This document shows, one piece after another, positions 2,113-24,751 of a stretch of DNA of 31,642 bases. The translations under genes and the position numbers were made by a program. The stretch covers positions 1-31,642 of the forward strand of contig JAGXAV010000001.1 of the NCBI GenBank assembly GCA_018971455.1, in the 5' to 3' direction. Numbering within the stretch: the stretch's first letter is position 1; the number at the start of each line of letters is the position of its first letter. This DNA is from Rhodospirillales bacterium (GTDB lineage Bacteria > Pseudomonadota > Alphaproteobacteria > Acetobacterales > Acetobacteraceae). The notes below the pieces were generated by a model, which made no database searches, was not told where the DNA came from, and saw nothing but the letters and a program-made list of their open reading frames with translations.

Positions 2113-5285
<3,173 letters not shown>

Positions 5286-5305
5286 GCATGGCACCCGAGA
5301 CGGAT

Positions 5306-5330
5306 CGGGCCGGCGCCGCGTCCCGGCCCG
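5306..5330 (+). terminator. Possible terminator of the imuA-imuB-dnaE2 operon
   Basis: An 8-bp perfect GC stem (CGGGCCGG at 5306-5313 pairing with CCGGCCCG at 5323-5330) with a 9-base loop lies 20 bases past the dnaE2 stop. The T-run (TTTT at 5346-5349) is displaced by 15 bases of GC-rich sequence, so this is not a textbook intrinsic terminator and could simply be a GC-rich hairpin. Confidence 0.35.
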
Positions 5331-5432
5331 GCCCGGCCCGGAAGATTTTGAACCTCGCCACAACTGGATTATGGCTTTCGTGCCCCGGGCGTGCCAGGGA
5401 AACGCCACCTCCGGCAGAAAGAGGAACCGCAC

Positions 5433-5828: not shown

Positions 5829-5831
5829 CCC

Positions 5832-5869
5832 GGGTCTGTCAGGCCCCCGCCCGGGCGCCTGACAGACCC
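5832..5869. terminator. Shared bidirectional hairpin between rhodanese and hsp20
   Basis: GGGTCTGTCAGG at 5832-5843 pairs perfectly over 12 bp with CCTGACAGACCC at 5858-5869, with a 14-base loop. It lies between two convergent stops (5828 on plus, 5889 on minus) and could end transcription from both sides. Neither strand has a long U-run after the stem, so it is an unusual intrinsic terminator or an mRNA 3'-end stabiliser. Confidence 0.6.
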
Positions 5870-5888
5870 TCGCCTCCGCCCTCGCGCC

Positions 5889-6383: not shown

Positions 6384-6461
6384 AGCGCAAATCTCCTCTT
6401 CTGGTAGATTGACGATGCGACGAGCGCGCGCATCCCATCCCATGAAGGGCGCCGTACGTCG

Positions 6462-6475
6462 TTGATTTAGGTCAA
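6462..6475 (-). promoter_or_regulatory. Candidate FNR/FixK-type binding site upstream of hsp20
   Basis: TTGATTTAGGTCAA (plus strand; TTGACCTAAATCAA on minus) fits the TTGAY-N4-RTCAA pattern bound by alphaproteobacterial FnrL/FixK proteins. Its centre lies about 85 bases upstream of the hsp20 start codon. No convincing -10 box is visible at the distance expected for a class II site, so activator geometry is uncertain. A CRP-like protein of the same family could also bind. Confidence 0.45.
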
Positions 6476-6534
6476 ACCGGCCACCGGGTGCGTGACGCCC
6501 GCGCGGCATCACACACCGGCGCAGCCCCCAGGCG

Positions 6535-7410
6535 CTACGCCTCCGCCTCCAGATCGACACTGACGGCAACACTGTGCGCGCCGCCGCCCAGGATGACGCC
6601 GCGGACCGGACTGATGTCGCCGTAATCGCGGCCCCAGGCGAGGACGACATGCTCGTCCTGCACCACCAGATTGTTGGTGGGATCGAGATCGACCCACCCA
6701 TGCGCCGGACCCAGCCAGCATCCAACCCAGGCATGCGACTGGTCCACTCCCCGCCGCGCCACCCGGCCGGGCGGCGGACGGGTGCGCAGATAGCCCGAGA
6801 CGTAGCGGGCCGGCAGGCCGAGGGCGCGCAGCCCGGCAATCATCAGATGGGTGAAATCCTGGCAAACCCCGGCGCGCTGCGCGAGCACGCGCGAGACCGG
6901 TGTGTGCACCGTGGTCACGCCCGGCCTGAACGCGAAATCCTGACGAATGCGGGCCGTGAGGTCCAGAAGCCCGGCAAATATCGGCCGCCCCGGGGGAAAG
7001 CTTGCGCGCACATAGGCGCCAGCGCCGGCATCGGCCGGAGCCATCGGGCTTGCGAAGGCGAACTCCGCGGCCTGCCATGCCTGCGGCCCGCCATCACGCG
7101 CCGCCGCCACGACCGCTTCCCAGGCCGGCGTGTCGTGTGGCGAGGGCGGCGGCGGGAAAGCCACATCAACCCGCGCCTGCACCGTCACCACGAAGCGCTC
7201 ATGCGGCAGGTCGAGAAAGACGCGGGCGACATGGTTGGCAAAATGGTCCTCGCCCTCGTTGATCCTGCTGGCCCGCGGCTCGATGCTGAACGATGCGGCG
7301 AGAACGCGCTGCCATGGCAGCGTGCGCGGCGAAAGATGCAGCATATGGCTGGCAAGATCGACCGGCTCGCCATAGCTGTAGGCGGTGTTGTGGTGGATCC
7401 GGTACTTCAC
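6535..7410 (-). CDS. Small transglutaminase-like protein of the ATP-grasp/alpha-E module
   Basis: This 291-residue protein starts at GTG 7410, overlapping the upstream stop in a GTGA arrangement, and begins VKYRIHHNTAYSYGEPVDLASHMLHLSPR. That N-terminal beta domain (about residues 1-90) is typical of the bacterial transglutaminase-like family. The catalytic triad is intact: Cys183 in AGVCQDFTHLM, His226 in SHAWVGCW and Asp243 in VDLDPTNN. Members have the cysteine-protease fold; proposed roles include peptide hydrolysis or amide-bond chemistry on peptides made by the associated ATP-grasp enzyme. No signal peptide is visible, so it should be cytoplasmic. It is the last gene of a minus-strand run and is followed by the separately controlled hsp20. 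The substrate is unknown. Confidence 0.85.
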   Translation of the reverse strand: MKYRIHHNTAYSYGEPVDLASHMLHLSPRTLPWQRVLAASFSIEPRASRINEGEDHFANHVARVFLDLPHERFVVTVQARVDVAFPPPPSPHDTPAWEAVVAAARDGGPQAWQAAEFAFASPMAPADAGAGAYVRASFPPGRPIFAGLLDLTARIRQDFAFRPGVTTVHTPVSRVLAQRAGVCQDFTHLMIAGLRALGLPARYVSGYLRTRPPPGRVARRGVDQSHAWVGCWLGPAHGWVDLDPTNNLVVQDEHVVLAWGRDYGDISPVRGVILGGGAHSVAVSVDLEAEA

Positions 7411-9920
7411 GCCACCCCCTGCAGGGCCTCGGCCTCGGCACTCATGCCGAGCGTCTGCACCGCCGGCAGCAGGGCGAAATAGCGCCGTGTCAGCCGGTCC
7501 GACAGGGCGGCGACGCCGGCGCTGACATCGTGCAGCCGCTCCGGACATTGCGCGGCGGCGACCGCCTGATCCGGCGCGGCAAGCACGAACTCGACCAACG
7601 TCTCGATCTCGGCGAGCAATCCGGCGGCGGTCGCCGCCAGCCGCTCCCGTGCGCCGCCACCCTCACCCGCCAATTCATCGAGCAGCGTATGCGTCTGGGC
7701 GAGCTGGAAGGCGAGGCCCCGCGGATTGCCCTGGTCGGCCAGCACCAAATCGAGCACCGGAGCAGGCTGCAGCACGTTGAGGTAGCGGCTGCGATAGGTG
7801 ATCGCCGAATCACAGAGTTCCAGCGCCAGATGCAGGCCGATCTCGATACGCGGCGGCGGCTGGTCGATGGCGAAGGCGACCTCGGTGGCCACCGCCTGGG
7901 CACGCTCCATCCGCCGTCCGAGATCGAGAAACAGCCAGCCGCCGCCACGCACCATGTTCTCGGCGGCAACACCGGCGACGGCGGTCGAGAAGCGCAGGAT
8001 GCCCACCATGCTATGGGCCAGCCCGTCCAGGCTGCGGCCCGCGGCGGCGGCATCGGCCCGGGCGGCGCGCAGGGTCTGGGTGAAGGTCGCGTACATGTCG
8101 CCGGTCAGCCGGTCGCGCACGCTTTCCGTAAGCTGGGCGACCCGGCTGAACAGCTGGCCGATCGAGCCCCCCTCGCGGACGCTGGCCAGCAGCGCCTCGG
8201 CCATCACCGTGCTGGTCACCGCGGCCGCCGCCTCCAGCGGGATGACTCCCGCCTCGACCAGGCAGCGCCCGAGCGCCTGCAACTCGGCCGTCTCATGCGG
8301 CATCACGGAGCTGCCCCGGCCGAGCCGGGCAGTGGCCGCGCGGGCGAGACGTGCGGCGCGTTCCAGGCGTTCGACGTAGCGGCCCAGCCAGAACAGATTG
8401 TCGGCGACGCGGCTCGGCAGGTCGCCGGTGGTGCGGCGCAGGCGCAGCCGGGTCTGGGCGGCAAAGGCGGGGCCGACGATATCGCCGCGATCCTCGCTGA
8501 GCACCCAGACATCCTTGGATACGCCGCCCGAGGGCAACCGCCCCGCGGCCACCCCGCTCGCGCCCCCGCCCGCCTCGGCGACATGCGGCTCCATCACGCG
8601 CGCCAGCCCGCCCGGAGCCGCCTGCCAGGACACTCCGTCAAACACCATGAAGACGCGCAGCACCACCGGCCGCGGCGTCATCCCCTCCGCGGTGAGGCAG
8701 GGCGCGACCGAGGGTGGGATCGCGGTGGCCGCACTCCATTGCCAGGGCTGTGCGGCGACGCGGGCCAGCAGCGCCTCGCGCGCCGCCGGCGCCATCGTCG
8801 CCGGCGCCTGGGCATGGGCGCCGCCATCCAGCGCCGGACGGATCAGCCAATTCTCCGGCGCCGCCCGCACCGTCGCGTGCGCCCGCTCCGACCCGAGCCA
8901 GAGAGTCGGCACGCTGGGCAGCGCCAGCTTCTCTCCGAGCAGATGCATGCACAGCGCCGGCAGAAAGGCGGCCAGGCCCGGGGCCTCAAGCAGCCCGGCG
9001 CCGGGATTGTTGGCGATCTGCACCTCCCCCGCGCGCGCCGCATCGAGCAGGCCGGGAACACCGAGCAGGCTGCCGGCTTCCAGCTCCAGCGGATCGATCA
9101 TCCGCCCGTCAAGGCGGCGAAGCAGCACATCGACCTGCTGCAGGCCTTTCAGCGTCTTGAGGAAAACGCCTCCCCCCCGCACCGTGAGGTCGCCGCCCTC
9201 GACCAGCGCGCAGGACAGCTCGCGCGAGAGATACATGTGCTCGAACCATTGCGCGCTGGCGGTGCCGGGGGTGAGCAGCGCGACCACGGGGTTCGTCTTG
9301 CCGGGCGGCGCCAGGCGTTGCAGTGCGTCCTGCCAGATATCGAAGAATGGCCGCAGCGGGCGAACATGCAGCGGGCGGAATGCCTCGGGCAGCACGCGGG
9401 CGAGCAGGCGGCGATTCTCCCGTGCGTAGCCGATGCCGCCGGCGCCGGCGGTACGATCGCTCAGCACGCGCCAGGCCCCGTCCGGCCCGCGCACCAGATC
9501 GGCCGCGTAGAAATGCAACAGGCTGCCCGTCGTCATGCCGCGGCAGGGACGCAGGAAGCCCGGATTGGCGAAGATCAGCGCGGGCGGAAGCCGCCCCTCC
9601 GCGAGCAGGCTCTGCGGTCCGTGCAGGTCGCGCAGCACCGCCTCCAGCAGTCGGGCCCGCTGCGCGAGGCCCGCCTGCAGCCCGGCGAAGTCGGCGGCCG
9701 GAATCAGCAGCGGGATCGGGTCGCAGCGCCAGACATTGGCTTGCGGGGTGGCGCCGGGCAGCACGGAGGTGATGCCCTCATCCTCGAAGGCGCGATCGAG
9801 CCGGCGGGCGCGCTCGGCGAGCCCGCCCTCGCCGAAGGCCGCGAACGCGCCAAGCAGGCCACGCCATTGCGGGCGTAGCCCACCCTGGCCGTCCACCATC
9901 TCATCGAGGGCCGGAAGCAT
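7407..9920 (-). CDS. Circularly permuted ATP-grasp / alpha-E fusion protein
   Basis: This roughly 837-residue protein fuses two families often encoded side by side. Residues about 70-480 are the circularly permuted type 2 ATP-grasp domain (DPIPLLIPAADFAGLQAGL, DLHGPQSLLAEG, then RPLRPFFDIWQDAL and EGGDLTVRGGGVFLKTL). From about residue 500 to the end is the helical alpha-E domain (DLPSRVADNLFWLGRYVERLE, RGGGWLFLDLGRRMERAQ). ATP-grasp enzymes ligate a carboxylate to an amine using ATP, so peptide-bond formation is the likely chemistry. I chose ATG 9920, preceded by CAGGG five bases upstream, over GTG 9926. Its stop overlaps the next gene start by four bases, and the upstream DUF2126 gene ends 18 bases before this ATG. 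Product and acceptor are unknown. Confidence 0.85.
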   Translation of the reverse strand: MLPALDEMVDGQGGLRPQWRGLLGAFAAFGEGGLAERARRLDRAFEDEGITSVLPGATPQANVWRCDPIPLLIPAADFAGLQAGLAQRARLLEAVLRDLHGPQSLLAEGRLPPALIFANPGFLRPCRGMTTGSLLHFYAADLVRGPDGAWRVLSDRTAGAGGIGYARENRRLLARVLPEAFRPLHVRPLRPFFDIWQDALQRLAPPGKTNPVVALLTPGTASAQWFEHMYLSRELSCALVEGGDLTVRGGGVFLKTLKGLQQVDVLLRRLDGRMIDPLELEAGSLLGVPGLLDAARAGEVQIANNPGAGLLEAPGLAAFLPALCMHLLGEKLALPSVPTLWLGSERAHATVRAAPENWLIRPALDGGAHAQAPATMAPAAREALLARVAAQPWQWSAATAIPPSVAPCLTAEGMTPRPVVLRVFMVFDGVSWQAAPGGLARVMEPHVAEAGGGASGVAAGRLPSGGVSKDVWVLSEDRGDIVGPAFAAQTRLRLRRTTGDLPSRVADNLFWLGRYVERLERAARLARAATARLGRGSSVMPHETAELQALGRCLVEAGVIPLEAAAAVTSTVMAEALLASVREGGSIGQLFSRVAQLTESVRDRLTGDMYATFTQTLRAARADAAAAGRSLDGLAHSMVGILRFSTAVAGVAAENMVRGGGWLFLDLGRRMERAQAVATEVAFAIDQPPPRIEIGLHLALELCDSAITYRSRYLNVLQPAPVLDLVLADQGNPRGLAFQLAQTHTLLDELAGEGGGARERLAATAAGLLAEIETLVEFVLAAPDQAVAAAQCPERLHDVSAGVAALSDRLTRRYFALLPAVQTLGMSAEAEALQGVA

Positions 9921-9938
9921 TGTCACCCTGGCACTGTT

Positions 9939-12900
9939 TCAGGCGAATCGGCGCAGGTCCAGCGTGCGCGGATGCTCGAGCCCCGGCGCGTCGCGCGGCG
10001 CATCCATCGGCCCCGGCGTATGGCCGAAGGCGAAGAAGCGCGAACGCCGGCGCGCCTCGGCCTCGTTGGCGTTGACCGGGAAGGTGGCGTAGCTGAGCCC
10101 GCCCGGATGCGAGACGTGGTGGGTGAGCCCACCCAGGCTGCGCCCGTTCCAACGGTCATACACGTCAAACACCAGCGGCGCCTGGGCGGCGATGGTGGGG
10201 TGCAGCGAATTCGGTGGCGCCCATGCCTTGAAGCGCACGCCAGCCACGTATTCCCCGGCGCGCTCTGTGCGCGAGAGCGGCACCGCGACGCCGTTGCACG
10301 CCAGCACGAAGCGATCCTCGATCCAGCCACCCACGCGCATCTGCACCCGCTCGACCGAGCTGTCCACGTAGCGCGCCAGGCCGGTGGGGGTGACCTCCTC
10401 GCCCAGCACATGCCACGGCTCGAGCGCGTGGCGCAGCTCGAGCTGCATGTCGCGCACCGCCGCCATGCCGATCTTCGGGAAGCGGAACTCCAGATGCGGC
10501 GCGAACCACTCCGGCTCAAGCCTGGTGCCGAGGGCCGACAGCTCCTCCAGCGCGTCGTGGAAATCCTGCGTGCAGCAATGCGGCAGCAGGAACTCATCAT
10601 GCAGCCGCGTGCCCCATCGGATCAGCCGGCGCTCATAGGGCGTCTTCCAGAACGCCGCGACGGCGGCGCGCATAAGCAGCATCTGAGCTGCCGACATTTC
10701 GGCGTGCGGCGGCATTTCGAAAGCCCGGAATTCGACGAGGCCACGCCGTCCCGAGGGGCCGGAGGGATCGTACATCTTGTCGATGCAGAACTCGGTCCGG
10801 TGGGTATTGCCGCTCATATCCGCGAGGATGTTGCGGAAGACGCGATCGGTCATCCATGGCGGCATCGCGTGCCCGGGGGCAAGGCGGCTGAAGGCGATCT
10901 CGAGCTCCAGCGTGGCGTCGTCGCGCGCCTCGTCGATGCGCGGATGCTGGCTGGTCGGCCCGATAAACAGGCCACTGAACAGGAAGGACAGGCTCGGGTG
11001 ATTATGCCAGAAGCCGAGCAGGCTCCGCAGCAGGTCGGGCCGGCGCAAAAACGGACTGTCGGCCGGCACGGCACCGCCCATCACCACGTGATTTCCGCCG
11101 CCGGTGCCGACATGGCGGCCATCGAGCATGAACTTCTCGGCCGCCAGCCCGACCTGGCGCGCCTCCTCGTAAAGCTGCACGGTACGGGTGACGTGCTGGT
11201 CCCAGCCCGTCGCCGGATGGACGTTCACCTCGATGACGCCGGGGTCGGGCGTGACGGAAAAATGCAGCAGGCCGGGATGCTCCGGCGGGCCGTACCCTTC
11301 CAGGATGATCGGCCGCCCCGCCGCCGCCGCGGTCGCCTCCACCGCGGCAACCAGCGCCAGCCAATCCTCGGATTCGTCGAGCGGCGGGAAGAAGATGTGC
11401 AGGATGCCGCCGCGCGCCTCGATCGCAAGCGCCGTTCGCACGGGCCCCAGCACCGCGGCCCCGGCGGGCGCCGGTCCCTGCGCCTGGATGGCCGGCGCGC
11501 CGACCCGCTCGACCGCGGCACGCAACGCCCTCTGCGCCGGCAGCGCGCGGGACGGCGCGAACGGATCGGCCGCCACCGAGTGTTCGACCCCGTCGGGATC
11601 GAGCCAGGGCAGGCTGTCGAGCGGCAGGCGCAGGCCGATCGGGCTGTCACCCGGGATCAGGAACAGCGTGTCGTCGCGGAAGAACCAGCGGCCGCTCTGC
11701 CAGACGCGCTTCGCCCCGGCCGCCACGCGGCGCAACGGCAGCACCGTTCCGACCGGAGCGGCGAGGCCCTGGGCGAAGAGGCGCGCCATGCGGGCACGCT
11801 CCAGCGGGTCGCGCAGCTTGCTGTCCTCGACCACCACATTGGCCGCCAGCCGGTGCTCTTTCCACAGATAGTAATGCACGTCCTCGTAGGCCGGCCTCAC
11901 CAGGCCAGGATCGATTTGCAGGCGCGTCGCCAGCGCCTCGGCGAACGCCCGCGCGTCCTCGGCGGTCGCCGTGTCGATGGTGCGATCAGGATCGGCAAGC
12001 AGCGCCGGATCGTTCCACACCGCCTCGCCATCCTCGCGCCAATGCGCGGTGAGGGCCCAGCGTGGCAGCGGCTCGCCGGGATAGAGCTTGCCCATGCCGT
12101 GGTGCAGCGCCGCCCCCGGCGCCCAGAGCGCGGCGAGGCGGCGGATCAGCTTGCCCGCCAGGCCACGCTTGGTCGGGCCAAGGGCGGCGGTATCCCATTC
12201 CGCGGCCTCGATATCGGTTGCCGAAACGAACGTCGGCTCGCCGCCGAGAGTGAGGCGCACATCGCCAGCCGCAAGCGCTTCGTCCACCGACGCGCCGGCG
12301 GCGAGGATGGCCTGCCATTGCGCCTCGGTATACGGTTTGGTGACGCGCGGGGTTTCAGCGATGCGCGCGATCTTCATTTCGAAATCAAATTCGACGCCGG
12401 CCGCCTCCACTCCCCCCGAGATCGGCGCCGCCGAGCCCGGATCGGGGCTCGCGGCAAGCGGGATATGGCCCTCTCCCGCGAGCAGGCCGGACGTGGCATC
12501 GAGCCCGATCCACCCGGCGCCGGGCAGGTAGACCTCGGCCCAGGCATGCAGGTCGGTGAAGTCGGCGGTCGGTCCCGTCGGACCTTCCAAGGGCTTCACA
12601 TCGGCGACGAGCTGGATGAGGTAGCCCGAGACGAAGCGGGCGGCAAAGCCGAGATGGCGCAGCACCTGCACCAGCACCCAGGCGGAATCCCGGCAGCTTC
12701 CCTTCGCCGCGCCCAGCGTCTGCTCGGGTGACCAGACGCCCGGCTCGAGGCGGACGATGTAGCCGATGCGGCGTTGCACGGCGAGGTTCAGCGCCACCAG
12801 CTTGTCCACGCTGCGCATCGGCGTGCGCGGAATGTCAGCGAGCAATCCGGCAAGCAGCGGCCCCGGGGACGTTGTCTTGCGGAAGGGCGCGAGTTCCTGC

Positions 12901-13232
12901 TCGAGCACCGGGTCATAGGCAAAAGGCCAGGTCTCGGCCTGCGGCTCGAGGAAGAAATCGAACGGGTTGATCGTCGCCATGTCGGCCACAAGATCGACGG
13001 TGACGTCGAAATGCCTGACTTTCTCGGGAAACACCACGCGGGCGAGGAAATTGCCTTGCGGGTCCTGTTGCCAATTGAGGAAATGCGGCTGGGGCGAGAC
13101 CGTCAGCGCGTAGGAGAGGATGGCCGTTCGGGCATGCGGCGCCGGGCGAAGGCGGATGGTCTGCGGCCCGAGTGTGACCGCGCGGTCGTAACGATAGGAG
13201 GTGCGGTGCGTCAGGGCTGCGTGAATGGACAT
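9939..13232 (-). CDS. Giant transglutaminase/DUF2126 family protein
   Basis: This 1097-residue protein, normal for the family, begins MSIHAALTHRTSYRYDRAV with the same N-terminal beta domain as the small transglutaminase downstream. The transglutaminase-like triad is complete: Cys180 in GSCRDSAW, His229 in LHAWAEVY and Asp245 in GLDATSGL. After about residue 300 the large DUF2126 region begins. It contains GGEPTFVSATDIEAAEW, an ATP-grasp/amidoligase-like stretch (VIEVNVHPATGWDQHV, GTGGGNHVVMGGA) and PEWFAPHLEFRFPKIG near the end. Glutamine-synthetase-like or amidoligase chemistry is plausible but unproven. It is co-directional with the ATP-grasp/alpha-E gene (12 bases between the stop and that reading frame). 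ATG 13232 has a GAGGCGG-like site upstream. A second-copy relationship with the small transglutaminase is evident only over the first 300 residues. Confidence 0.83.
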   Translation of the reverse strand: MSIHAALTHRTSYRYDRAVTLGPQTIRLRPAPHARTAILSYALTVSPQPHFLNWQQDPQGNFLARVVFPEKVRHFDVTVDLVADMATINPFDFFLEPQAETWPFAYDPVLEQELAPFRKTTSPGPLLAGLLADIPRTPMRSVDKLVALNLAVQRRIGYIVRLEPGVWSPEQTLGAAKGSCRDSAWVLVQVLRHLGFAARFVSGYLIQLVADVKPLEGPTGPTADFTDLHAWAEVYLPGAGWIGLDATSGLLAGEGHIPLAASPDPGSAAPISGGVEAAGVEFDFEMKIARIAETPRVTKPYTEAQWQAILAAGASVDEALAAGDVRLTLGGEPTFVSATDIEAAEWDTAALGPTKRGLAGKLIRRLAALWAPGAALHHGMGKLYPGEPLPRWALTAHWREDGEAVWNDPALLADPDRTIDTATAEDARAFAEALATRLQIDPGLVRPAYEDVHYYLWKEHRLAANVVVEDSKLRDPLERARMARLFAQGLAAPVGTVLPLRRVAAGAKRVWQSGRWFFRDDTLFLIPGDSPIGLRLPLDSLPWLDPDGVEHSVAADPFAPSRALPAQRALRAAVERVGAPAIQAQGPAPAGAAVLGPVRTALAIEARGGILHIFFPPLDESEDWLALVAAVEATAAAAGRPIILEGYGPPEHPGLLHFSVTPDPGVIEVNVHPATGWDQHVTRTVQLYEEARQVGLAAEKFMLDGRHVGTGGGNHVVMGGAVPADSPFLRRPDLLRSLLGFWHNHPSLSFLFSGLFIGPTSQHPRIDEARDDATLELEIAFSRLAPGHAMPPWMTDRVFRNILADMSGNTHRTEFCIDKMYDPSGPSGRRGLVEFRAFEMPPHAEMSAAQMLLMRAAVAAFWKTPYERRLIRWGTRLHDEFLLPHCCTQDFHDALEELSALGTRLEPEWFAPHLEFRFPKIGMAAVRDMQLELRHALEPWHVLGEEVTPTGLARYVDSSVERVQMRVGGWIEDRFVLACNGVAVPLSRTERAGEYVAGVRFKAWAPPNSLHPTIAAQAPLVFDVYDRWNGRSLGGLTHHVSHPGGLSYATFPVNANEAEARRRSRFFAFGHTPGPMDAPRDAPGLEHPRTLDLRRFA

Positions 13233-15788: not shown

Positions 15789-16640
15789 ATGCGCGCCCGT
15801 CTCGCAACCGCCCTGCTTCTGCTCCTGCTCCCTGCCCTGGGCGGGCTCGGCCGCGCATGGGCATCGGACCGCAGCTTCCTCAGCAGCGACGGCGTGCGCC
15901 TGCACTATATCGAGCGCGGTCGCGGGCCGACCATCGTGCTGGTGCCGGGGTGGACCATGCCGGCCTGGATCTGGCAGCGACAGATCGAAGATTTCTCGCA
16001 CACCTACCATGTCGTGGCCTTCGACCCGCGCGGACAGGGGGCCAGCGCCATCGCACCGTCCGGCTACGAGCCGGGGCGGCGCGGACAGGACATCGCCGAA
16101 TTGCTGACCCGGCTCGGCGGGCCGCCGGTGCTGCTGGTTGGCTGGTCGCTCGGCGTGCTCGACGTGCTGGCCTACGTCCACGCGCATGGCGACTCGCGCA
16201 TCGCGGGCCTTGTGCTGGTCGATAATTCCGTGGGCGAGGACCCGCCGCCAGCATTTCATCCGGCCCTTCCCGGCCCGCGAGTGCCGCGCCCCGTTAAAAT
16301 GCGCCGCTTCGTGCGTGGGATGTTCGCCACCCCGCAGCCACAAGCCTGGCTCAATCGCCTGACCGCCGCCACCCTGCGGCTGCCGAAGCGGGATGCGGAT
16401 GCGCTGCTCGCCTACCCAGTGCCGCGCACTTATTGGAAAGATGCGGTCTACGGCACCAGCCGGCCGATTCTCTACATCGTACGGCAGGGCTTCGCCGGGC
16501 AGGCGGAAAACCTGCAGGCACATCGGCCGAATACCGAGACGGTGGTGCTGCACGGCGTCGGCCACGCGCTGTTCGTCGACGAGCCGGCCCGTTTCGACGC
16601 GCTGGTGAGGGCTTTCATCCGCCGGCATGTTTGGCGGTGA
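15789..16640 (+). CDS. Exported alpha/beta hydrolase
   Basis: This 283-residue protein carries a Sec-type signal peptide (MRARLATALLLLLLPALGG, likely cleaved near AWA-SD at about residue 25), followed by a complete alpha/beta hydrolase fold. The oxyanion region is VLVPGWTMPAWIW, the nucleophile elbow is GWSLG with Ser120, and the catalytic His259 sits in HGVGHALFVDEP. The acid residue is probably in the loop after ILYIVRQG but is not certain. It should hydrolyse an ester, amide or similar bond in the periplasm. The start at ATG 15789 has only a weak ribosome-binding site (GCAGG region), and the start is 45 bases from the divergent small-protein gene, so its promoter is squeezed into that gap or overlaps the neighbour. 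The stop shares a base with the next start codon. Confidence 0.83.
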   Translation: MRARLATALLLLLLPALGGLGRAWASDRSFLSSDGVRLHYIERGRGPTIVLVPGWTMPAWIWQRQIEDFSHTYHVVAFDPRGQGASAIAPSGYEPGRRGQDIAELLTRLGGPPVLLVGWSLGVLDVLAYVHAHGDSRIAGLVLVDNSVGEDPPPAFHPALPGPRVPRPVKMRRFVRGMFATPQPQAWLNRLTAATLRLPKRDADALLAYPVPRTYWKDAVYGTSRPILYIVRQGFAGQAENLQAHRPNTETVVLHGVGHALFVDEPARFDALVRAFIRRHVWR

Positions 16641-19051
16641 TGGCGCCGCTCTTTCTGATATCGCTGGCCAGCATCGGCTACGAAATCGCGCTGACCCGCT
16701 ATTTCGCAGTCGCGAAATGGTCGGAGTATGGCTACTGGGTGATTTCGATCGTGCTGGCCGGCTTCGCCCTCTCCGGGGTCGTCATGGCGCTCGGGCGGGA
16801 TCGGTTCGCGCGGCACGGCACTGCCCTTCTGGGCGGGCTGCCGGTGCTGCTGATACTGGCGGCGGCCATCGGCTACCACTTCGTCACCACCAATCCGTTC
16901 AATCCGCTGCAGCTCCAGAATGCGGCAACTTTCGTCCCTCAACTCTATAATATCGCAGCATATTACCTCTGTCTTCTGCCATTCTTCTTCCTCGCCGGCC
17001 TGTATGTCGGGCTGAGCTTCGTACTCAATGATCACCAGCTCGGCCGGGTCTACGGGTTTGATCTGACAGGCGCCGGCGCCGGCGCGCTGCTGGTGTTGGG
17101 GCTGATGGCGCTGGTGCACCCTTTCGCGCTCGTGCCCTGCCTGCTGGTGCCGCTGGCGCTCGCCACGCCCTTCACCTCCGGCTGGACGAGTCGGCGGCGG
17201 CGCGGCGCCATGCTGCTCGCCACCGCCGCCGCCTTGCTGGCCGGCGAGGCGCTTCTGCTGGCCGACAATCAAGCGCAATTCAACGATTTCAAAGCAATAT
17301 ACGCCCCTTTGCATGTGCCGGACAGCCATGTTCTGGCGCGGAATTTCTCCCCGCGCGGGCTCTATATGATGCTCGACGACTTCACCGAGCGGGTGGACAC
17401 CGACGTGTCCAACGATGCGGGCATGCTCGGCCTGCCCGGCCCGCCAACCTCCTTCGGCCTGTACCGCGACGGCAACCGCCTGGCCTCGTTGCCGCGGCCG
17501 GGGCCGATTGACGTCCGCTATGCCAGCGCGACCCTTTCCGCCCTACCCTATGCCCTGCTCGCCCATCCGCACGTGCTGCTCGCCGGCGGCGGCGGGGGCT
17601 TTCGGGTCGCCGCGACGGCGGCCCTCGGCGCCGCCGGCATCGACGTGGTGGAACCGGAGCCGATGCTGCGCCGTGCCTTGCGTCGCGGCTTGGGGCCGTC
17701 ACCGGGTCTTGCGGGAATGGCGGGGCTGCACATCCTGGCCGAAAGCCCGATCGCGGCGGCGCGGACGCGCGGCCCATACGACCTGATCGACATCTCGGGC
17801 GGCTTTCTGGACAGTGCGGAGGCCAACACCAGCGCCTTCGCCGCGGAGGCCGTGGCAGCCTATCTGCGCGCGCTGACGCCAGGCGGCATCGTCTCCATTC
17901 CCGTCTCCATCCGCGAATTTCCCTCCTACGCCATCCGCATGCTGGCCACCGCCCGCCGCGCCATGCGCCTGGCCGGGATCGCCCATCCCGCCGAGCATGT
18001 GCTCGCCTACCGCTCGGCCTGGACGGTGCGGATCCTGCTCTCGAACGCCGCCTTCACCCCGGCCCGGGTGGCGGCCGCACACAGCTTCTGCAACGCGCGA
18101 TCCTTCGATATCAGCTACTTCCCGGGCATTGATGTCGCGGCCTCGCGCAAGGATGTGTTCAACGACCTGCCAGCGGTCTCCTTCTCGCAAGGTGCGGTGG
18201 TCTCCGGCGACGGGCTGCACGACGCCATCGCCGACGAGGCTTTGCAGACCCTGCTCGGCCAGGCCACCAGTTCGGCACGGGCCTTCAACCTGGCGCCGAT
18301 CACCTATGACCGCCCGTCCTTCTATTCCGTGCTGCGCCTGGAGCATCTCGGCACCATTCTGCGGCGCGTGGAAATCCTGCCGCAGGCCGAGATCGGCGCG
18401 CTGGTCAATCTGGCCGTGCTTGCCCAGGCGATCGCCATCGCTCTCCTGGTGCTCGCCGTGCCGCTGGTCGCCGGAAAAGCGTTGCGAACCGGCGGGACAC
18501 CGCGAGCGGTGATCTATTTCTCCGCCCTCGGACTCGGCTTCCTGTTCCTGGAAATCTTCCTCATCGACCGCGCCAGCTTCTACCTCGACGACCGGACCAG
18601 CGGATTCGCCCTGGTCCTGACCGGCATGCTGATCTTCTCTGGTATCGGCAGCATGCTGAGCGCCCGCTTTGTCGCGCGCCCGCGGCGCGGCGTCCGTCTG
18701 GCGGTGGGCCTGATCGTGCTGTGGGGGGTGGTTCTGGCGCTCGGCTTGCAGCCCTTCATGCTGGCGACGCTGGCCTGGCCGTTCCTGGCGCGCGCGGCGC
18801 TGGTGCTGCTGATGGTGGCGCCGTTGTCGCTCGCCCTTGGCCTGCCCTTCCCGCTCGGGCTGGGTGAGGTGGGCAGCGGCCGCTTCCTGCCCTGGGCCTG
18901 GGGACTGAACGGCGCCTTTTCCGTGGTGGCAACGCCGCTGGCCAACCTGATGGTGCTCGAACTTGGCTATGACAGGGTTCTGCTGGCGGCGCTGGTGCTG
19001 TATGTGACCGCCGTGATCACTTTTCCCCGCTCGCGAAGGGCCTCGCTGTGA
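16640..19051 (+). CDS. Polytopic membrane protein with spermidine-synthase/methyltransferase-like domain
   Basis: This 803-residue protein has three parts. The N-terminus (about residues 1-215) has six or so membrane segments (e.g. YWVISIVLAGFALSGVVMAL, LYNIAAYYLCLLPFFFLAGL). A large soluble part (about 215-585) contains a Rossmann-like aminopropyl/methyltransferase core: HVLLAGGGGGFRVAATAAL, then the acidic strand-two end IDVVEPEP near residue 335, and PYDLIDISGG near 380. The C-terminus adds about six more membrane segments. Canonical spermidine synthases have a D-S-x-D motif where this protein reads DISGG, so ordinary polyamine synthesis is doubtful. Its ATG overlaps the hydrolase stop by one base, and its stop overlaps the next GTG by four. 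Orientation of the soluble part, and thus access to cytosolic SAM or decarboxylated SAM, is unknown. Confidence 0.72.
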   Translation: MAPLFLISLASIGYEIALTRYFAVAKWSEYGYWVISIVLAGFALSGVVMALGRDRFARHGTALLGGLPVLLILAAAIGYHFVTTNPFNPLQLQNAATFVPQLYNIAAYYLCLLPFFFLAGLYVGLSFVLNDHQLGRVYGFDLTGAGAGALLVLGLMALVHPFALVPCLLVPLALATPFTSGWTSRRRRGAMLLATAAALLAGEALLLADNQAQFNDFKAIYAPLHVPDSHVLARNFSPRGLYMMLDDFTERVDTDVSNDAGMLGLPGPPTSFGLYRDGNRLASLPRPGPIDVRYASATLSALPYALLAHPHVLLAGGGGGFRVAATAALGAAGIDVVEPEPMLRRALRRGLGPSPGLAGMAGLHILAESPIAAARTRGPYDLIDISGGFLDSAEANTSAFAAEAVAAYLRALTPGGIVSIPVSIREFPSYAIRMLATARRAMRLAGIAHPAEHVLAYRSAWTVRILLSNAAFTPARVAAAHSFCNARSFDISYFPGIDVAASRKDVFNDLPAVSFSQGAVVSGDGLHDAIADEALQTLLGQATSSARAFNLAPITYDRPSFYSVLRLEHLGTILRRVEILPQAEIGALVNLAVLAQAIAIALLVLAVPLVAGKALRTGGTPRAVIYFSALGLGFLFLEIFLIDRASFYLDDRTSGFALVLTGMLIFSGIGSMLSARFVARPRRGVRLAVGLIVLWGVVLALGLQPFMLATLAWPFLARAALVLLMVAPLSLALGLPFPLGLGEVGSGRFLPWAWGLNGAFSVVATPLANLMVLELGYDRVLLAALVLYVTAVITFPRSRRASL

Positions 19052-19923
19052 CCATTTCCCTGACCCGCCGCCACCTTCTCGCCACGGCGCCAGCGCTGCT
19101 GGCCGTTCCGGCCGCCACCCCCGCCAGAGCCGCTGGGTGGACGCGCGACGCCTATATGGCGGCGATGGTGAAATCGGGGCGCCCGGTCTCGCTCACCCAG
19201 GCGCAGTTCGACGCCATCCAGAGCCGCAAGCCGGCCGCGATGCAGCGCATCGAGCGCTATCTCAAGGAGCGGCTCGGCAGCGCCGATCCGGCGGTGATGG
19301 CGGCCTTCGAGGCCGTCCCGCGGGAATATTTTCACTACCTCTATGACAGCCACCGCGCCACCCCCGGCGATGCCTACGAAGCCAACCCGAAGCCCTGGGC
19401 ATTGGGCTTCGGCTCGGCGCTGTCCGACTATCTGGGGCAGGCCTACATGACGCAGAAATGCGAGCCCAAGCCCGAGCACGTCACGCTCGAGATCGGCACG
19501 GGCAGCGGGTTCCAGAGCGCCCTGTTGTCACGCATCGTCAAGCGCGCCTATTCGATCGAAATCATTGAGCCGCTGGGCAAGGCCGTGGGGAAGATTTTTG
19601 CCCCGCTCGGCTACGACAATGTCGAGACCCGCGTGGGCGACGGATATTATGGCTGGCCCGAGGTCCAGGGCGGGTTCGACATCATCATCGTCACCTGTGC
19701 CGCGCAATACGCGCCGCCGGATCTGTTCAAGCAGCTGAAGCCCGGTGGGCGGATGGTGATCCCCATCGGCCAACCCTTCAAGCGCGGCCAGTTCCTGTAC
19801 ATCTACACCAAGGATAGCGACGGCAAGGTGCATTCACGCAAGGATGTCGGCGTCTATTTCATCCCGATGACGGGCGCGATGATGAAACAGCCGGCGCCCA
19901 AGCCCGCCCCCCTCACGCACTGA
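19048..19923 (+). CDS. Tat-exported protein-L-isoaspartate O-methyltransferase homologue
   Basis: This 291-residue protein starts at GTG 19048, overlapping the previous stop as GTGA. The N-terminus MTISLTRRHLLATAPALLAV has twin arginines (7-8) before a hydrophobic core and an ARA-A type cleavage site near residue 28, a good Tat signal. The mature part matches the PIMT family: LEIGTGSGFQSALLSRIV (SAM motif I, about residues 147-165), VETRVGDGYYGWPE, FDIIIVTCAAQYAPPDLFKQLKPGGRMVIPIG. The loop just before motif I reads LSDYLGQAYMTQK instead of the usual iSqPymvA-type loop, so substrate choice may differ from isoaspartate. Export of a SAM-dependent enzyme is odd, since SAM is cytosolic. It is the third gene of a tightly overlapping trio with the hydrolase and the membrane transferase-like protein. 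Confidence 0.8.
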   Translation: MTISLTRRHLLATAPALLAVPAATPARAAGWTRDAYMAAMVKSGRPVSLTQAQFDAIQSRKPAAMQRIERYLKERLGSADPAVMAAFEAVPREYFHYLYDSHRATPGDAYEANPKPWALGFGSALSDYLGQAYMTQKCEPKPEHVTLEIGTGSGFQSALLSRIVKRAYSIEIIEPLGKAVGKIFAPLGYDNVETRVGDGYYGWPEVQGGFDIIIVTCAAQYAPPDLFKQLKPGGRMVIPIGQPFKRGQFLYIYTKDSDGKVHSRKDVGVYFIPMTGAMMKQPAPKPAPLTH

Positions 19924-21010
19924 GGGCCGCGACGCAAGCCCGGCCTGCCTGCTCGCTGACCTGCCCGGCGAGCACCGAGCGAGCGCGCGCGAAATCCATC
20001 TCCGGACAGATGGTCGTCACCACCGCAATGGCGTCTGTGATCTGACGGGCGCGCCACTGGATCGCGATATCGTCGCTGCGCTGGCACGCGGCCAGCAGCA
20101 GCGGCAGTCGGGCCGCGAAGGCGGCCGCTTCCTGGCGCAGCAGCGGCAGCCAGCGGGCGCGAAAAATCTCCACCGCGTCGGCCATCAGCTGGAGTCGCGA
20201 GACCGGTGGAAGCCGCGCCAGGGCGAAACGCTCGACGTGGCCATAGGCCGTGGTAATCAGCGGCGTGTGCCAACGTAGATCGGCCAGCCAGTCATCGAGC
20301 CCAAGGCCACGCTGGGCAAAGCCGCTGCTGGCGCGGGCCAGAACGTCTACCGGCCGGCCGCCGTCGCGACGCCAGTAGAGCGGCTCGGGCAAATGACGAA
20401 TTTCACCGTACAGCGCCAGCTCGGCGAGAACCGCGTGGTCCCACCCTGCGCCATAGGCAAATGGAGAGAGGGCATCGATGGCCTGACGCCGATAGATGCC
20501 CCAGAAGCTCGGTGCGCTGGTGTACCGGCTCATCACATGCCGCGCGCGGGCAAGCGGATCGCCGTCGGTTGCAGCCAGATTATGAGCGGGTGGATAGACC
20601 GCGCTCACTCCTCCCGAGGTGGTGAAGATCAGGCCGCCAGCGTGGCACATAGCGCAATCGGCGTGGCGCAACATCACGTCCATAACACGTTCGATAAAAT
20701 CGGGTGCGATGATGTCGTCGCCGGTCTTGGGCATCACGTAATCCGCGTCGCCGTGCCAGAATGCCCGCTGGCAGTTCACCATGCCGCCAGTATCGACCCG
20801 GTTGCGCCGCAGCGACACGCCGGGCGCGTCGGCGTACCGTTGCAGAATCGCGAAGGTGCCGTCCGTCGAGGCATTGTCGATCAGTGTTAGCCGGATCGCA
20901 GGCCAGGTCTGAGCCAGCACGCTCTCGATCGCGGCACCCACCGTGGAGACGCTGTTGTGGACCAGGAGGTTCACATCAACGATCGGCGCCGCATCGCCAC
21001 CCACCATCAT
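19913..21010 (-). CDS. GT2 family glycosyltransferase
   Basis: This 365-residue protein has a GT-A fold start (VDVNLLVHNSVSTVGAAIESVLAQTWPAIRL) with LIDNASTDGT at about residues 45-55 and a metal-binding acidic motif in MPKTGDDIIAPDF. The acceptor side includes YGAGWDHAVLAELA. Such enzymes transfer a sugar from a nucleotide donor. About 150 C-terminal residues are helical with no family I recognise. I start at ATG 21010, whose ATGA overlaps the upstream glycosyltransferase stop and which is preceded by GAGGGG. A longer frame to 21091 has no such signal. It overlaps the convergent exported methyltransferase gene by 11 bases at their 3' ends. Position at the end of the flagellar/glycosylation run suggests a role in extending the flagellin glycan, which is inferred. 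Confidence 0.8.
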   Translation of the reverse strand: MMVGGDAAPIVDVNLLVHNSVSTVGAAIESVLAQTWPAIRLTLIDNASTDGTFAILQRYADAPGVSLRRNRVDTGGMVNCQRAFWHGDADYVMPKTGDDIIAPDFIERVMDVMLRHADCAMCHAGGLIFTTSGGVSAVYPPAHNLAATDGDPLARARHVMSRYTSAPSFWGIYRRQAIDALSPFAYGAGWDHAVLAELALYGEIRHLPEPLYWRRDGGRPVDVLARASSGFAQRGLGLDDWLADLRWHTPLITTAYGHVERFALARLPPVSRLQLMADAVEIFRARWLPLLRQEAAAFAARLPLLLAACQRSDDIAIQWRARQITDAIAVVTTICPEMDFARARSVLAGQVSEQAGRACVAALSA

Positions 21011-23304
21011 GCCGCCCCTCGCGCACACCAATCGCTCCAGGCGTGCCGCAATGCCGCGCCAAGATTGCGGCCGAAACGGGGCGCATCGCAAAGCGGACTC
21101 GCCTCAACGCGGGCCCGCATGACGGCCCGCAACTCGGCGAGCTTCCTCACATCGGCCGCATGGTGGCAGGCAAGTTCGCAGTATGACTCGCGGTCCCTCG
21201 CAATCCAGTCAGCCAGGCCGACATTGCTCAGATGGCTGAACGAGTGGCGGGACGCAAAGGTTTCACCAGGAAAGGTAACCGTCGGCACGCCCATCCAGAG
21301 CGCCTCGCATGTCGTCAGCCCACCGCCATAGGGGAATGGGTCGAGCACAATGTCGATGTCACCAAACTGCGCCAGCAACTCGCGGTGCGGTGAGGCGCCT
21401 CGCATCTCGATTCTGTCCGCGGATACGCCATGGCGCGCGAATTCGCGGATCAGCCGCTCACAAGTTTGCGCATCGGCAAGCTGATGGCATTTGAGAACGA
21501 GACGTGCCCCCTCTACCCGCCGCAGGATCGTGGCCCAGGTGGCGATCACGGTGGTGGTGATTTTTGCCAGATTGTTGAAGCACCCGAAGGTGACATGGCC
21601 GCGCGACAGAGCCGGAAGCGCTGCAACCTCTGGTGCATAGGCGGGTGGGCTATAGCAGACGTAGCCATCTGGCATCACGAGCAGACGCTCCGAGTAACGC
21701 CGGGCAAGGCTGGGCGGCGTCTCCCACCGGTCGGTGATGAACCAGTCCATTTCGGCAAGTCCGGTGGAATGGCTTTGCGACCCGACCCATTTGATCTGCA
21801 CCGGCGCCAACCGGCTCGCACACAAGGTCATCAACCCCTGATCGCCAAAACCGCCGAGATCGATGACGATGTCCAGCTGGCGCCGCCGAATATCGTCGAC
21901 CGGGCCGGGGGCGCCTTCGCCGCCGCCGAGGCAGACCCAGTCACTCGCCACCGCACGGAAGCGACGCTGGATCGCGTCGTCGGCGACGTTGCGCGAAATG
22001 CACACAATGTCATGGTGCGCGGGATCCAGTGCCTCGAATCCGGCTATGGTCAGCCACCCAACCGGGTGGGTGCGCAAATTGTTGGACAAAAGGCCAATAC
22101 GCAAGCGGCGTTCGGCATTCCTGGCATTGGAAAATGCCGGCGCGGCATCGCGAGGCAGTGCAGCGCCTGCCATCATGTTGACGCGCAACAACTCCGCGGC
22201 GCTTACCTCATCGCTATAGGGCATGGCATTGCTGAGCGTGCGCCATGACAGGCTCTCCGTCGGCCACAGCTCGGTTGCCCGCCGTGCGGTTGCAACGCCC
22301 TTTTCCTGAAGCCCGAGCGAGACGAGGGCATTGGTCAAGTTGCAGAGAAACCCCGACTGCTCTCCATGCTGATCGATCAGCGCCTCGAGCTCCTCGCGCG
22401 CCTGCCGATGGCGATGCACACGAACCAGGAAGGCCGCCTTGTTGTTGCGCAGAGTCAGATCATCCGGCGCCAGAGCTATGGCCCGGTCGAGTGCGAGCAA
22501 GGTTTCGCGAGTGCGGGTGCCCTTCACCATCGCATGTGCAAGCCCCGCCGCCGCTTCCGGAAGCTTCGGAGCCAGGCAGGTTGCGGCTTCAAGAATATCG
22601 GCCGCCTCGTGATAACGGCCAAGTCGGCCAAGAAGATGCCCACGCGCGGTCAGGGCGATCACGTCAAGCGGGTCTTCCAGACCGCGTTGCTCCAGGCGCG
22701 CGAGCTCTTCCAGCCCTTTGCCGGCAGCCATCGCGGCGTCACCGAGACGCAGCACGATCGCAATGCGTTCTGGAGCAAGGCGCACGGCTTCGGCAAATGC
22801 CGCCGCGGCGGACATGTCGTCCCGGCTGGCCTGCAACGTGATGCCAAGCAGGTCCCACGCCTCCGCATTGTGTGGCGCCCAGCAGCAACACCGCAACATC
22901 AGCATTTGCGCCCGGGCGAACGCCCCGCGTTGCACGAGCAGTGCGCCGAGCGCCACCATCGCTTCCTCGCGGGCGGGATTGCGTTGCAGGGCCGCCTCGA
23001 AATACGCCTCGGCCTCGGCAGGCTCCCCGGCACCACGCCAGCTTTCGGCCAAACGGAGGAAAGGCTCGTCCCAATCCGGCTCATTGTCGGAAAGCTGGGT
23101 CAGCAGCGCGCGCGACGCGGACAAATTGCCCAGCCGGTCCTCTGCTATGGCCAGGTTGACCATCGTCTCCCTCGTCGTCGTTCCCGCCGCAAGTTGTTCG
23201 CGCAGGACATCACGTGCCTCGGCAAAATACCCTTTGGCCAACAACTCCCGGGCGTCGTGAACCGGATGATCCGCGCGCACCATCTCTCCGACCGCGGCCA
23301 CCAC
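21007..23304 (-). CDS. TPR-GT41 (OGT/SPINDLY-like) glycosyltransferase, FlmG-like
   Basis: This protein of about 765 residues has TPR-type helical repeats over roughly the first 390 residues (e.g. AEAYFEAALQRNPAREEAM, AADILEAATCLAPKLPEAA) and then a GT41 catalytic region. The latter shows RLRIGLLSNNLRTHPVGW, LDIVIDLGGFGDQG, VTFGCFNNLAKITTTVI and the signature DIVLDPFPYGGGLTTCEALWMGVPTV with FASRHSFSHLSNVGL. This is the eukaryotic OGT/SPY architecture. In Caulobacter, FlmG combines a flagellin-binding TPR region with a glycosyltransferase region that modifies flagellin, and this gene sits downstream of flagellin, flbT and flaF. The start is ambiguous: GTG 23304 has GGAG eight bases upstream, while ATG 23361 lacks a site and overlaps the previous gene by 53 bases. 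The sugar donor is not identifiable here; no nucleotide-sugar biosynthesis genes are in the window. Confidence 0.82.
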   Translation of the reverse strand: MVAAVGEMVRADHPVHDARELLAKGYFAEARDVLREQLAAGTTTRETMVNLAIAEDRLGNLSASRALLTQLSDNEPDWDEPFLRLAESWRGAGEPAEAEAYFEAALQRNPAREEAMVALGALLVQRGAFARAQMLMLRCCCWAPHNAEAWDLLGITLQASRDDMSAAAAFAEAVRLAPERIAIVLRLGDAAMAAGKGLEELARLEQRGLEDPLDVIALTARGHLLGRLGRYHEAADILEAATCLAPKLPEAAAGLAHAMVKGTRTRETLLALDRAIALAPDDLTLRNNKAAFLVRVHRHRQAREELEALIDQHGEQSGFLCNLTNALVSLGLQEKGVATARRATELWPTESLSWRTLSNAMPYSDEVSAAELLRVNMMAGAALPRDAAPAFSNARNAERRLRIGLLSNNLRTHPVGWLTIAGFEALDPAHHDIVCISRNVADDAIQRRFRAVASDWVCLGGGEGAPGPVDDIRRRQLDIVIDLGGFGDQGLMTLCASRLAPVQIKWVGSQSHSTGLAEMDWFITDRWETPPSLARRYSERLLVMPDGYVCYSPPAYAPEVAALPALSRGHVTFGCFNNLAKITTTVIATWATILRRVEGARLVLKCHQLADAQTCERLIREFARHGVSADRIEMRGASPHRELLAQFGDIDIVLDPFPYGGGLTTCEALWMGVPTVTFPGETFASRHSFSHLSNVGLADWIARDRESYCELACHHAADVRKLAELRAVMRARVEASPLCDAPRFGRNLGAALRHAWSDWCARGAA

Positions 23305-23308
23305 CTCG

Positions 23309-24751
23309 CTAACTCCGTCGCAATGCGACAATGGCGCCGCGCACAGGCTGCCCGTCTTCATTGCGCAAAATGTCCGGCTGGAGGGTGGCAATGGAAAATC
23401 CGGCCGCTTCCGCCGCACGAGAGACGTAGGGCAATTTATGTTGGTACCGGGCGAGGCGGCTCAGAGACCATTTGTCCCCGTTTTGGCCGGCCTCCCACTC
23501 CTCAACCGAAAAAATGAACATGCCGCCCTCGCGCAACGCCGTGTGGGCTGACGCGAATATCTCTTCAAGTGAGCCAAAATAGCACAGCACGTCGGCGGCG
23601 ATGACGAACGTCCAATACGCCGAGCGCTCGGTCAGCGCCTCTCGCAGCTCACCCTTGACCAACCGATGATAGAGGCCGGTCGCCGCTGCCTGACAGAGCA
23701 TTCGCTCCGACAGGTCCACCCCCACCAATTCCTCAAACCGTCGGTCGGACAGCGCCACCGCAGCCATTCCTGTGCCACAGCCCAGATCGAGGGTTGGCCC
23801 GATCGATCGATCATCGTCCGGCACGTGCCGCAGCAGCGCCGTACGCAGCAACCCCGGAATGCGATAGCCGAGCTCGACGAGATGCGCGTTGAATCCCTCG
23901 GCAATGCCATCAAAGACCGTCTCGACATACTCCGGCGGCGCCGCTTCGGTCGCCGGAAGCAACCCCGCCGCTTGCACGAGATGCCGCACGTAGCGGTCCT
24001 CTGGCGCCAATTTGAGAGCTTCAGCGTACGACCGTCCGGCGTCCGCGTGACGTCCGAGAATCGAAAGCGCATGCCCATGCAGTCCGAACACACATGCGTC
24101 CGCACCACCGCCTCGTATCGCCCGCACCGCCAGCTCGGCCGCCCGAGCAAAATCCTGCTGCCGCATCTGAAGCGTGATGAGCGCAATCTGAAGCCGCGAG
24201 TCATAGGGGTTGACGGCGATAGCAGCATGCAACACATCCGCGGCGGCCCTCACGTCGCCGATCCGCTCCTCGGCCTGAGCAAGCGCCAGACCGTATGCCG
24301 CCACCCCTGGATTCTGCGCAACGGCTGCTGCGAGGCAAATGCGCGCCTCCGCCGGGCGATCCAGCTCAATCAACACGGCCCCGAGCATCGCCTTGGCCTT
24401 GACGTTGCCCGGATCGAGAATGACTGCGTCCGCCGCGTCCCGTGCGGCGCCTGCCATATCTCCGCCCTGGGCACGGGCATCGCCGCGGCAGAGGTGCAGA
24501 GCCGCGCCATCCGGATAGGCAGCAATCCCATCATCAAGCACGAGCACGGCCTCGGCAGCACGCCCCTCGCGCACCAGAAAGCGGGCCTCCAACTCAATGC
24601 AGGAGTCACGCGCGCAACCAAGATGCGGCAACGCAGCCAGAAGTGGCCGCGCGGCGGCCAAGCGCCCTTGATCGATCAGCGACCGCACATGGCCGGCGAC
24701 CACATCTGGATCTGCATGGGCTGTCGGAGTTTCCGCAACATTCGCGAGCAT
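23309..24751 (-). CDS. TPR repeat protein with SAM-dependent methyltransferase domain
   Basis: In this 480-residue protein residues about 10-255 are TPR-like helical pairs (ALHLCRGDARAQGGDMAGAA, LHGHALSILGRHADAGRSYA). From about 270, the linker PPEYVETVFDGIAEGFNAHLVELGYRIPGLL leads into a class I methyltransferase with motif I TLDLGCGTGMAAVAL (about 318-332), acidic LVGVDLSERML, and FVIAADVLCYFGSLEEIF. The FDGIAEGFNAHL linker is typical of TPR-methyltransferases. Methyl acceptor is unknown; flagellin or its glycan is a reasonable guess from position between flaF and the GT41 gene. The start ATG 24751 has a strong GGAGGGAG upstream. It is 56 bases after flaF on the same strand. Its stop (TAG) lies just before the preferred start of the glycosyltransferase, which fits coupling. 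Confidence 0.82.
   Translation of the reverse strand: MLANVAETPTAHADPDVVAGHVRSLIDQGRLAAARPLLAALPHLGCARDSCIELEARFLVREGRAAEAVLVLDDGIAAYPDGAALHLCRGDARAQGGDMAGAARDAADAVILDPGNVKAKAMLGAVLIELDRPAEARICLAAAVAQNPGVAAYGLALAQAEERIGDVRAAADVLHAAIAVNPYDSRLQIALITLQMRQQDFARAAELAVRAIRGGGADACVFGLHGHALSILGRHADAGRSYAEALKLAPEDRYVRHLVQAAGLLPATEAAPPEYVETVFDGIAEGFNAHLVELGYRIPGLLRTALLRHVPDDDRSIGPTLDLGCGTGMAAVALSDRRFEELVGVDLSERMLCQAAATGLYHRLVKGELREALTERSAYWTFVIAADVLCYFGSLEEIFASAHTALREGGMFIFSVEEWEAGQNGDKWSLSRLARYQHKLPYVSRAAEAAGFSIATLQPDILRNEDGQPVRGAIVALRRS

Follow-up and report, generated by a model that had tools for sequence, protein, structure and literature searches.

The locus described here raises the question of what a relative of the isoaspartyl methyltransferases (PIMTs) would do outside the cytosol and how it would be supplied with SAM there. 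In the window (the whole stretch of 31,642 nucleotides that was analyzed), three genes follow one another on the plus strand, encoding an alpha/beta hydrolase of 283 amino acids (aa) with a Sec-like signal (positions 15789 to 16640), a membrane protein of 803 aa (16640 to 19051), and a PIMT relative of 291 aa (19048 to 19923). The TGA stop codon of the hydrolase gene (16638 to 16640) and the ATG of the membrane protein gene at 16640 have one base in common, and the GTG start of the PIMT-family gene at 19048 lies just ahead of the last bases of the membrane protein gene (stop codon, 19049 to 19051), giving a 4-base overlap. These coordinates and the stop and start bases agree with the 1- and 4-base overlaps reported in a first-pass annotation, which had raised the possibility that an exported hydrolase, a membrane transferase-like protein, and a Tat-exported PIMT homolog form a joint system facing the envelope. 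The sequence comparisons presented here indicate that the gene set is real, co-inherited, and envelope-facing, with no earlier description found among the open-access papers listed.

Elsewhere in the window, positions 493 to 5285 encode a Y-family polymerase (IMS domain) and then a DNA polymerase III alpha-type protein, an arrangement that we take to resemble an ImuB-DnaE2 mutagenesis cassette. The minus strand carries, in one run at 6535 to 13232, genes for a transglutaminase-like protein, a circularly permuted ATP-grasp plus Alpha-E protein, and a transglutaminase-DUF2126 amidoligase fusion. Also on the minus strand, positions 19913 to 24751 hold genes for a GT2 glycosyltransferase, a TPR-GT41 (OGT-like) protein, and a TPR-methyltransferase next to genes of the flagellin-domain, FlgK, and FlgE types; the region may be an island for flagellin glycosylation.

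Linkage of the three genes and an older pair

When named genomes were scanned for the membrane protein, 226 relatives were obtained, and 80 loci were kept, mostly titled Acetobacteraceae or Rhodospirillales and including Caulobacter and Brevundimonas. The hydrolase gene was directly upstream of the membrane protein gene in 78 of the 80 named loci (the exceptions being L060 and L076), and a PIMT gene was directly downstream in 76. The four loci lacking a direct PIMT neighbor comprised two at contig ends (L012 and L067), one with the PIMT gene 1.3 kb further on (L044), and one with none in sight (L062). In 150 genomes of the same family, searched at E-value cut-offs of 1e-60 for the membrane protein, 1e-70 for the PIMT, and 1e-50 for the hydrolase, the membrane protein was found in 57 and the other two in 58 each, with all three present in 56. 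Hypergeometric values for this co-occurrence take no account of how the genomes are related and were not treated as probabilities. The exceptions were G793, without the PIMT, G661 and G732, with the PIMT only, and G724, with only a piece of the hydrolase. The PIMT gene was present apart from the membrane protein gene in G706 (about 13 kb), G779 (about 18 kb), and G694 (another contig), and in genus g411 one genome (G753) had all three genes and another (G658) had none at these cut-offs. The homologs therefore do co-occur, the point on which the first-pass annotation had made its joint system depend.

A larger conserved cluster was considered and rejected. With antisense shadows of the trio genes set aside in the neighbor-family counts, no other family occurred in more than 11 of the 80 named loci plus the window. 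In 38 further distant or intermediate loci, the membrane protein was counted in 34 and the PIMT in 31, the next families being ABC transporter genes in 6 and 5.

Beyond the near relatives, the membrane protein and the PIMT were found together across Pseudomonadota. A class sample of 289 genomes contained 18 with the membrane protein, 15 of them with an adjacent PIMT gene; the exceptions were G124 (PIMT about 5 kb off on the same strand), G185, and G045 (a contig-end fragment). Of 398 genomes sampled across the phylum, 24 had the membrane protein (E 1e-40) and 22 of these had an adjacent PIMT gene, G468 and G484 being the exceptions. Three genomes were common to both samples, which leaves 39 distinct Pseudomonadota genomes carrying the membrane protein, 34 of them with the pair adjacent. 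The distant loci have the order PIMT then membrane protein, with identity down to about 26 to 33%, and the persistence of linkage through a change in gene order argues for function rather than inertia. PIMT as such is independent of the membrane protein, since a PIMT match was obtained in 217 of the 289 class-sample genomes and the membrane protein in 18. The hydrolase query matched nothing in the distant loci, which span about 1.5 kb past the match. By comparison of these groups, the membrane protein and the exported-looking PIMT are an old, co-inherited pair, which the hydrolase joined in the group holding the window. The proposal of a joint envelope-facing system is thereby well supported, with the amendment that the trio is not a unit everywhere and that its deep core is the membrane protein and the PIMT. 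We consider a joint function and a shared compartment of the gene set highly probable.

The pair was found on plasmids of Microvirga, Phyllobacterium, and Paraburkholderia, with transposase genes nearby in Microvirga and Paraburkholderia. Exported-looking PIMTs were observed in G095, G097, and, as judged by eye, G235, genomes without a full-length membrane protein, and the membrane protein occurred without an adjacent PIMT in G185, G468, and G484. Distant relatives of the membrane protein on plasmids of Legionella adelaidensis (L185) and Microvirga ossetica (L186) had no annotated PIMT neighbor, suggesting that the membrane protein family has other contexts. In one locus of G186 (L154, positions 9326 to 11272), two tandem PIMT-family genes stand behind a single membrane protein gene, and the same genome has a second pair, of the distant type, on another contig (L146). 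In G124 (L151, positions 2147 to 10551), genes resembling those of an oligopeptide-type ABC transporter lie between the PIMT and membrane protein genes, with comparable genes close to the pair in L140.

The PIMT relative and the hydrolase

The third protein belongs to the PCMT family (PF01135, E 1e-37), and its nearest solved structures by sequence are PIMTs; its score against the NCBIfam PIMT equivalog is 152 bits, below the cut-off of 188. The Tat signal that had been read ahead of the methyltransferase was borne out by the N-terminus TRRHLLA and by the signals of near relatives, and the predicted twin-arginine signal peptide comprises the first 29 residues (positions 19048 to 19134). An N-terminus resembling an export signal was detected in 110 of 114 rows of linked PIMTs vs 3 of 19 unlinked controls. 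By group, signals were found in 73 of 74 near sequences (72 with RR), 3 of 3 intermediate sequences, and 34 of 37 far rows (10 with RR; G066 counted twice). The remaining 24 distant signals have no RR and resemble Sec signals. The predicted signals in the near relatives speak against the cytosolic location that membership among the PIMTs would imply, and the window-type PIMT relative is predicted to be exported.

The signal rule was home-made and replaced a narrower Tat regular expression, which matched 65 of 73 and missed L009, L027, and forms with a lipobox. L091 and L156 fail the rule despite a visible hydrophobic N-terminal stretch, L127 fails though a signal is suggested, and L121 passes doubtfully. 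The near count covers 74 of the 80 loci, the remainder having no match or no motif I. Controls (L117 to L123 and L125 to L137) were chosen as loci without the membrane protein, so that its absence there is not a result; L135 was left out of the 19 used for signals, as its alignment begins within the gene before it, and L116 and L124 were excluded as coming from genomes with the membrane protein. In seven loci (L060, L075, L076, L077, L079, L082, and L160), the PIMT N-terminus has a lipobox followed by Asp; the first five are from Caulobacter and Brevundimonas, and L079 fails the signal rule. Under the Asp+2 rule, Asp directly behind the lipidated Cys keeps a lipoprotein on the inner membrane, which would place these PIMTs on the periplasmic face, where the soluble domain of the membrane protein is also predicted to lie.

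The SAM site of the PIMT relative appears intact. Residues E148, G150, T151, G152, S153, G154, and E171 were present in 75 of 75 near sequences, motif I and E171 were retained in every group, and the SAM motifs of the linked proteins were conserved equally to those of the unlinked controls. The substrate pocket differs between the groups. T-[IM]-S-x-P was found in 37 of 37 distant linked rows (36 distinct genes, as L096 and L167 represent the same G066 gene), and these proteins have the appearance of genuine isoaspartyl methyltransferases that were relocated beyond the cytosol. The group of the window instead has [AV]-L-S-D-Y-L-G-Q (75 of 75) in place of the T-I-S-x-P of PIMTs. The remodeled motif, GSALSDYLGQAY in the window (residues 122 to 133, positions 19411 to 19446), is invariant across these 75 sequences except at residue 124 (A in 69 and V in 6). 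PIMTs under 150 residues were left out of the motif count, which kept 19 of 20 controls. The rebuilding of the isoaspartate pocket suggests that the window's group probably has a new substrate. A second full-length PIMT was not found in the genome of the window, which is about 86% complete.

The reading of the first gene product as a hydrolase with a Sec signal and a Ser120/His259 fold was upheld: it matched Abhydrolase_6 (Pfam, E 2.5e-18), with BioH among its weak NCBIfam matches, and its N-terminus was judged by eye to be Sec-like. Among 79 aligned sequences, the window's included, S120 was conserved in 77, D145 in 78, and H259 in 79. The three residues would provide the nucleophilic Ser, the His, and the acid of an esterase, D145 being the probable acid of the triad. 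The hydrolase was found only alongside PIMTs with the rebuilt pocket, yet it was missing beside L060 and L076, and neither of the short loci L082 and L083 contained it. This pairing, which counts as one evolutionary association, is what would be expected of an esterase whose substrate is a stable methyl ester. From its gene linkage, the hydrolase is a candidate methyl-esterase of the module discussed below.

Topology and fold of the membrane protein

The 803-residue protein matched no Pfam family, and its single NCBIfam match had a chance-level E value of 0.39. Hydropathy averaged over 98 homologs indicated seven helices, a soluble stretch at about residues 209 to 586 (positions 17264 to 18397), and seven further helices. 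In 98 of 98 homologs, Lys and Arg were more numerous in the loops that a periplasmic soluble domain would leave on the cytosolic side (mean, 17.8 vs 4.3); helix ends were chosen by hand and the N-terminus was left out of this charge count. The odd number of helices ahead of the soluble domain, together with the positive-inside charge, would place the domain outside, and it is predicted to be periplasmic. This domain and the PIMT relative are hence predicted on the same side of the membrane; a location in different compartments had been named in the first-pass annotation as grounds against a joint system. A transporter-like internal repeat of 6 plus 6 helices (TM1 to TM6 vs TM9 to TM14) showed the expected register, and its score, reached by 5 of 60 block shuffles, was not significant.

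A profile of the 98 homologs retrieved spermidine synthases first (1uir and 3anx, E 7e-9; 1inl, E 3e-6). The spermidine-synthase-like domain shows only through this family profile and in distant homologs: the PF01564 cut-off was passed by 3 of 8 proteins tested (P0256, P0346, and P0273), the window protein not being among them. The domain contains a SAM-type glycine motif (G316 to G320) and E338, which is invariant in all 98 homologs and lies at the end of the second strand, the usual site at which the ribose of SAM is bound. The acid of the GxG(D/E)G motif is missing, position 319 being G in 96 (G319 in the window) and A in 2 of the 98. In aminopropyltransferases, the first Asp of D-x-T-D-P is catalytic; position 386, which aligns with the corresponding Asp of 1uir, is S, A, P, G, or T in 98 of 98 homologs (S386 in the window). 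The transferase-like character given to this protein at first was therefore correct as to a spermidine-synthase-like domain between two helix blocks, but the catalytic acids of an aminopropyltransferase are absent.

The name spermidine synthase, given to some homologs, was ruled out by the absence of both catalytic acids in all 98. It is further disfavored by a separate, soluble spermidine synthase in the same genome (L205), which keeps both motifs (GAGDGG and DSTDP). This suggests that members of the family called spermidine synthase in databases are misnamed. With E338 retained and with the resemblance to the fungal NHMT described below, the most likely role of the soluble domain is that of a methyltransferase or SAM binder outside the cytoplasm.

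A possible periplasmic methylation module and its relation to known systems

That the trio encodes a periplasm-facing methylation module is, in our estimate, an even proposition. In such a module, SAM would reach the periplasm, most simply through the 14-helix protein or handed over by it, and the soluble domain of this protein may also be a methyltransferase, like the fungal NHMT. The PIMT relative would methyl-esterify a carboxylate of an envelope molecule. In the distant lineages, the substrate would probably be isoaspartyl residues of aged periplasmic proteins; in the window's group it would be another, as the pocket has been rebuilt. The exported hydrolase would remove the methyl ester. 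Isoaspartyl repair can do without such an enzyme, since there the ester is lost as the succinimide forms.

We know of no SAM pool or SAM exporter in the bacterial periplasm. The Tat system could bring a folded protein across together with its bound SAM, enough for a single turnover. The distant PIMTs with Sec-like signals would cross unfolded and without SAM, so that SAM must be outside if they are active. Since an exported PIMT needs a supply of SAM and its sole constant partner is the 14-helix protein, we infer that the latter is the leading candidate for the supplier. The exported-looking PIMTs in genomes without a full-length membrane protein imply, if they are active, that it is not the only source. 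We offer tentatively, as a possibility short of probable, the most specific form of the module: SAM-dependent protein methylation in the periplasm, with the 14-helix protein as a dedicated SAM exporter or relay feeding an exported PIMT. Such a system would be the envelope's equivalent of isoaspartyl repair, and in Acetobacteraceae and Caulobacteraceae it would have been retuned to another carboxylate and have gained an esterase of its own.

Other explanations keep part of this picture. The membrane protein could be an NHMT-like methyltransferase of exported proteins, with SAM entering by a separate route that also serves the PIMT. The seven-helix and spermidine-synthase-fold layout and the loss of the GxG(D/E)G acid, both as in the portion of the NHMT report considered here (PMC10349129), speak for this explanation, as do the exported-looking PIMTs that occur without the membrane protein, but it leaves the constant PIMT partner unexplained, and the second seven-helix block is unlike NHMT as described in that portion; we regard it as unlikely.

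Still less likely is a cytosolic soluble domain, in which case the membrane protein would be a transferase of the cytosolic side and the PIMT would act separately outside. SAM is cytosolic, the topology derives from hydropathy and charge, and the PRK03612 model, which we take to describe a membrane-type aminopropyltransferase, weakly matches distant homologs; against these points stand the excess of Lys and Arg in the predicted-inside loops of every homolog and the phylum-wide linkage to an exported partner. Alternatively, the soluble domain and the PIMT relative may no longer use SAM, binding another ligand or serving as a periplasmic sensor or scaffold, with the 14-helix protein transporting something else. 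SAM is not known in the periplasm, and the membrane protein lacks the two catalytic acids of its nearest solved relatives. The PIMT SAM motifs are nevertheless conserved as in the unlinked controls and E338 is invariant, and a purely structural role would not explain an intact E-x-G-T-G-S-G site, so that we think this explanation quite improbable.

The preferred reading of a periplasm-facing methylation module would give the locus a wider interest. An exported PIMT with an intact SAM site and, linked to it across a phylum, a membrane protein whose SAM-type domain is predicted to be periplasmic provide a genetic handle on periplasmic methylation. Long-lived periplasmic proteins should suffer isoaspartyl damage out of the reach of cytosolic Pcm, and the repair that is missing there could be the task of the distant pairs. 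The open-access literature matches listed, a scope that takes in few subscription papers, described neither the pair nor an exported PIMT, and those listed on periplasmic methylation did not contain direct phrases for SAM, a methyltransferase, or methylation in the periplasm, in agreement with the earlier statement that no pathway of this composition had been described. A PHROGs search gave no lead.

Several known systems share parts of this arrangement. The catalytic part of PRK03612 (NCBIfam polyamine aminopropyltransferase) was matched by 6 of 8 homologs tested, at 25 to 38 bits; these matches are far under the 472-bit cut-off, the catalytic acids are absent, and the window protein had no match. 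BioC/BioH and LCMT1/PME-1 are cytosolic pairs of a carboxyl methyltransferase and an esterase. They resemble the trio in combining a methyltransferase with an alpha/beta hydrolase, but their substrates are unrelated and they have no membrane partner.

NHMT (AN4663) of Aspergillus nidulans is described, in the portion of its report considered here, as an ER-resident 7TM N-terminal histidine methyltransferase with secreted proteins as its targets (PMC10349129). Compared by layout and motif, it is like the membrane protein in having seven N-terminal helices, then a spermidine-synthase-fold domain in which the acid of GxG(D/E)G is replaced. It differs in its length of 558 aa and in ending without a second helix block, and that portion of the report mentions no PIMT partner (PMC10349129). 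In the same portion, its authors raise limited ER SAM as a possible limitation and find the 7TM block, in their own search, almost only in filamentous ascomycetes (PMC10349129). Pcm/PIMT (PF01135) shares its fold and SAM motifs with the PIMT relative, and the distant linked partners keep its T-I-S-x-P as well. The linked PIMTs differ from it in being predicted to be exported and in being tied to the membrane protein, and in the window's group the isoaspartate motif has been replaced.
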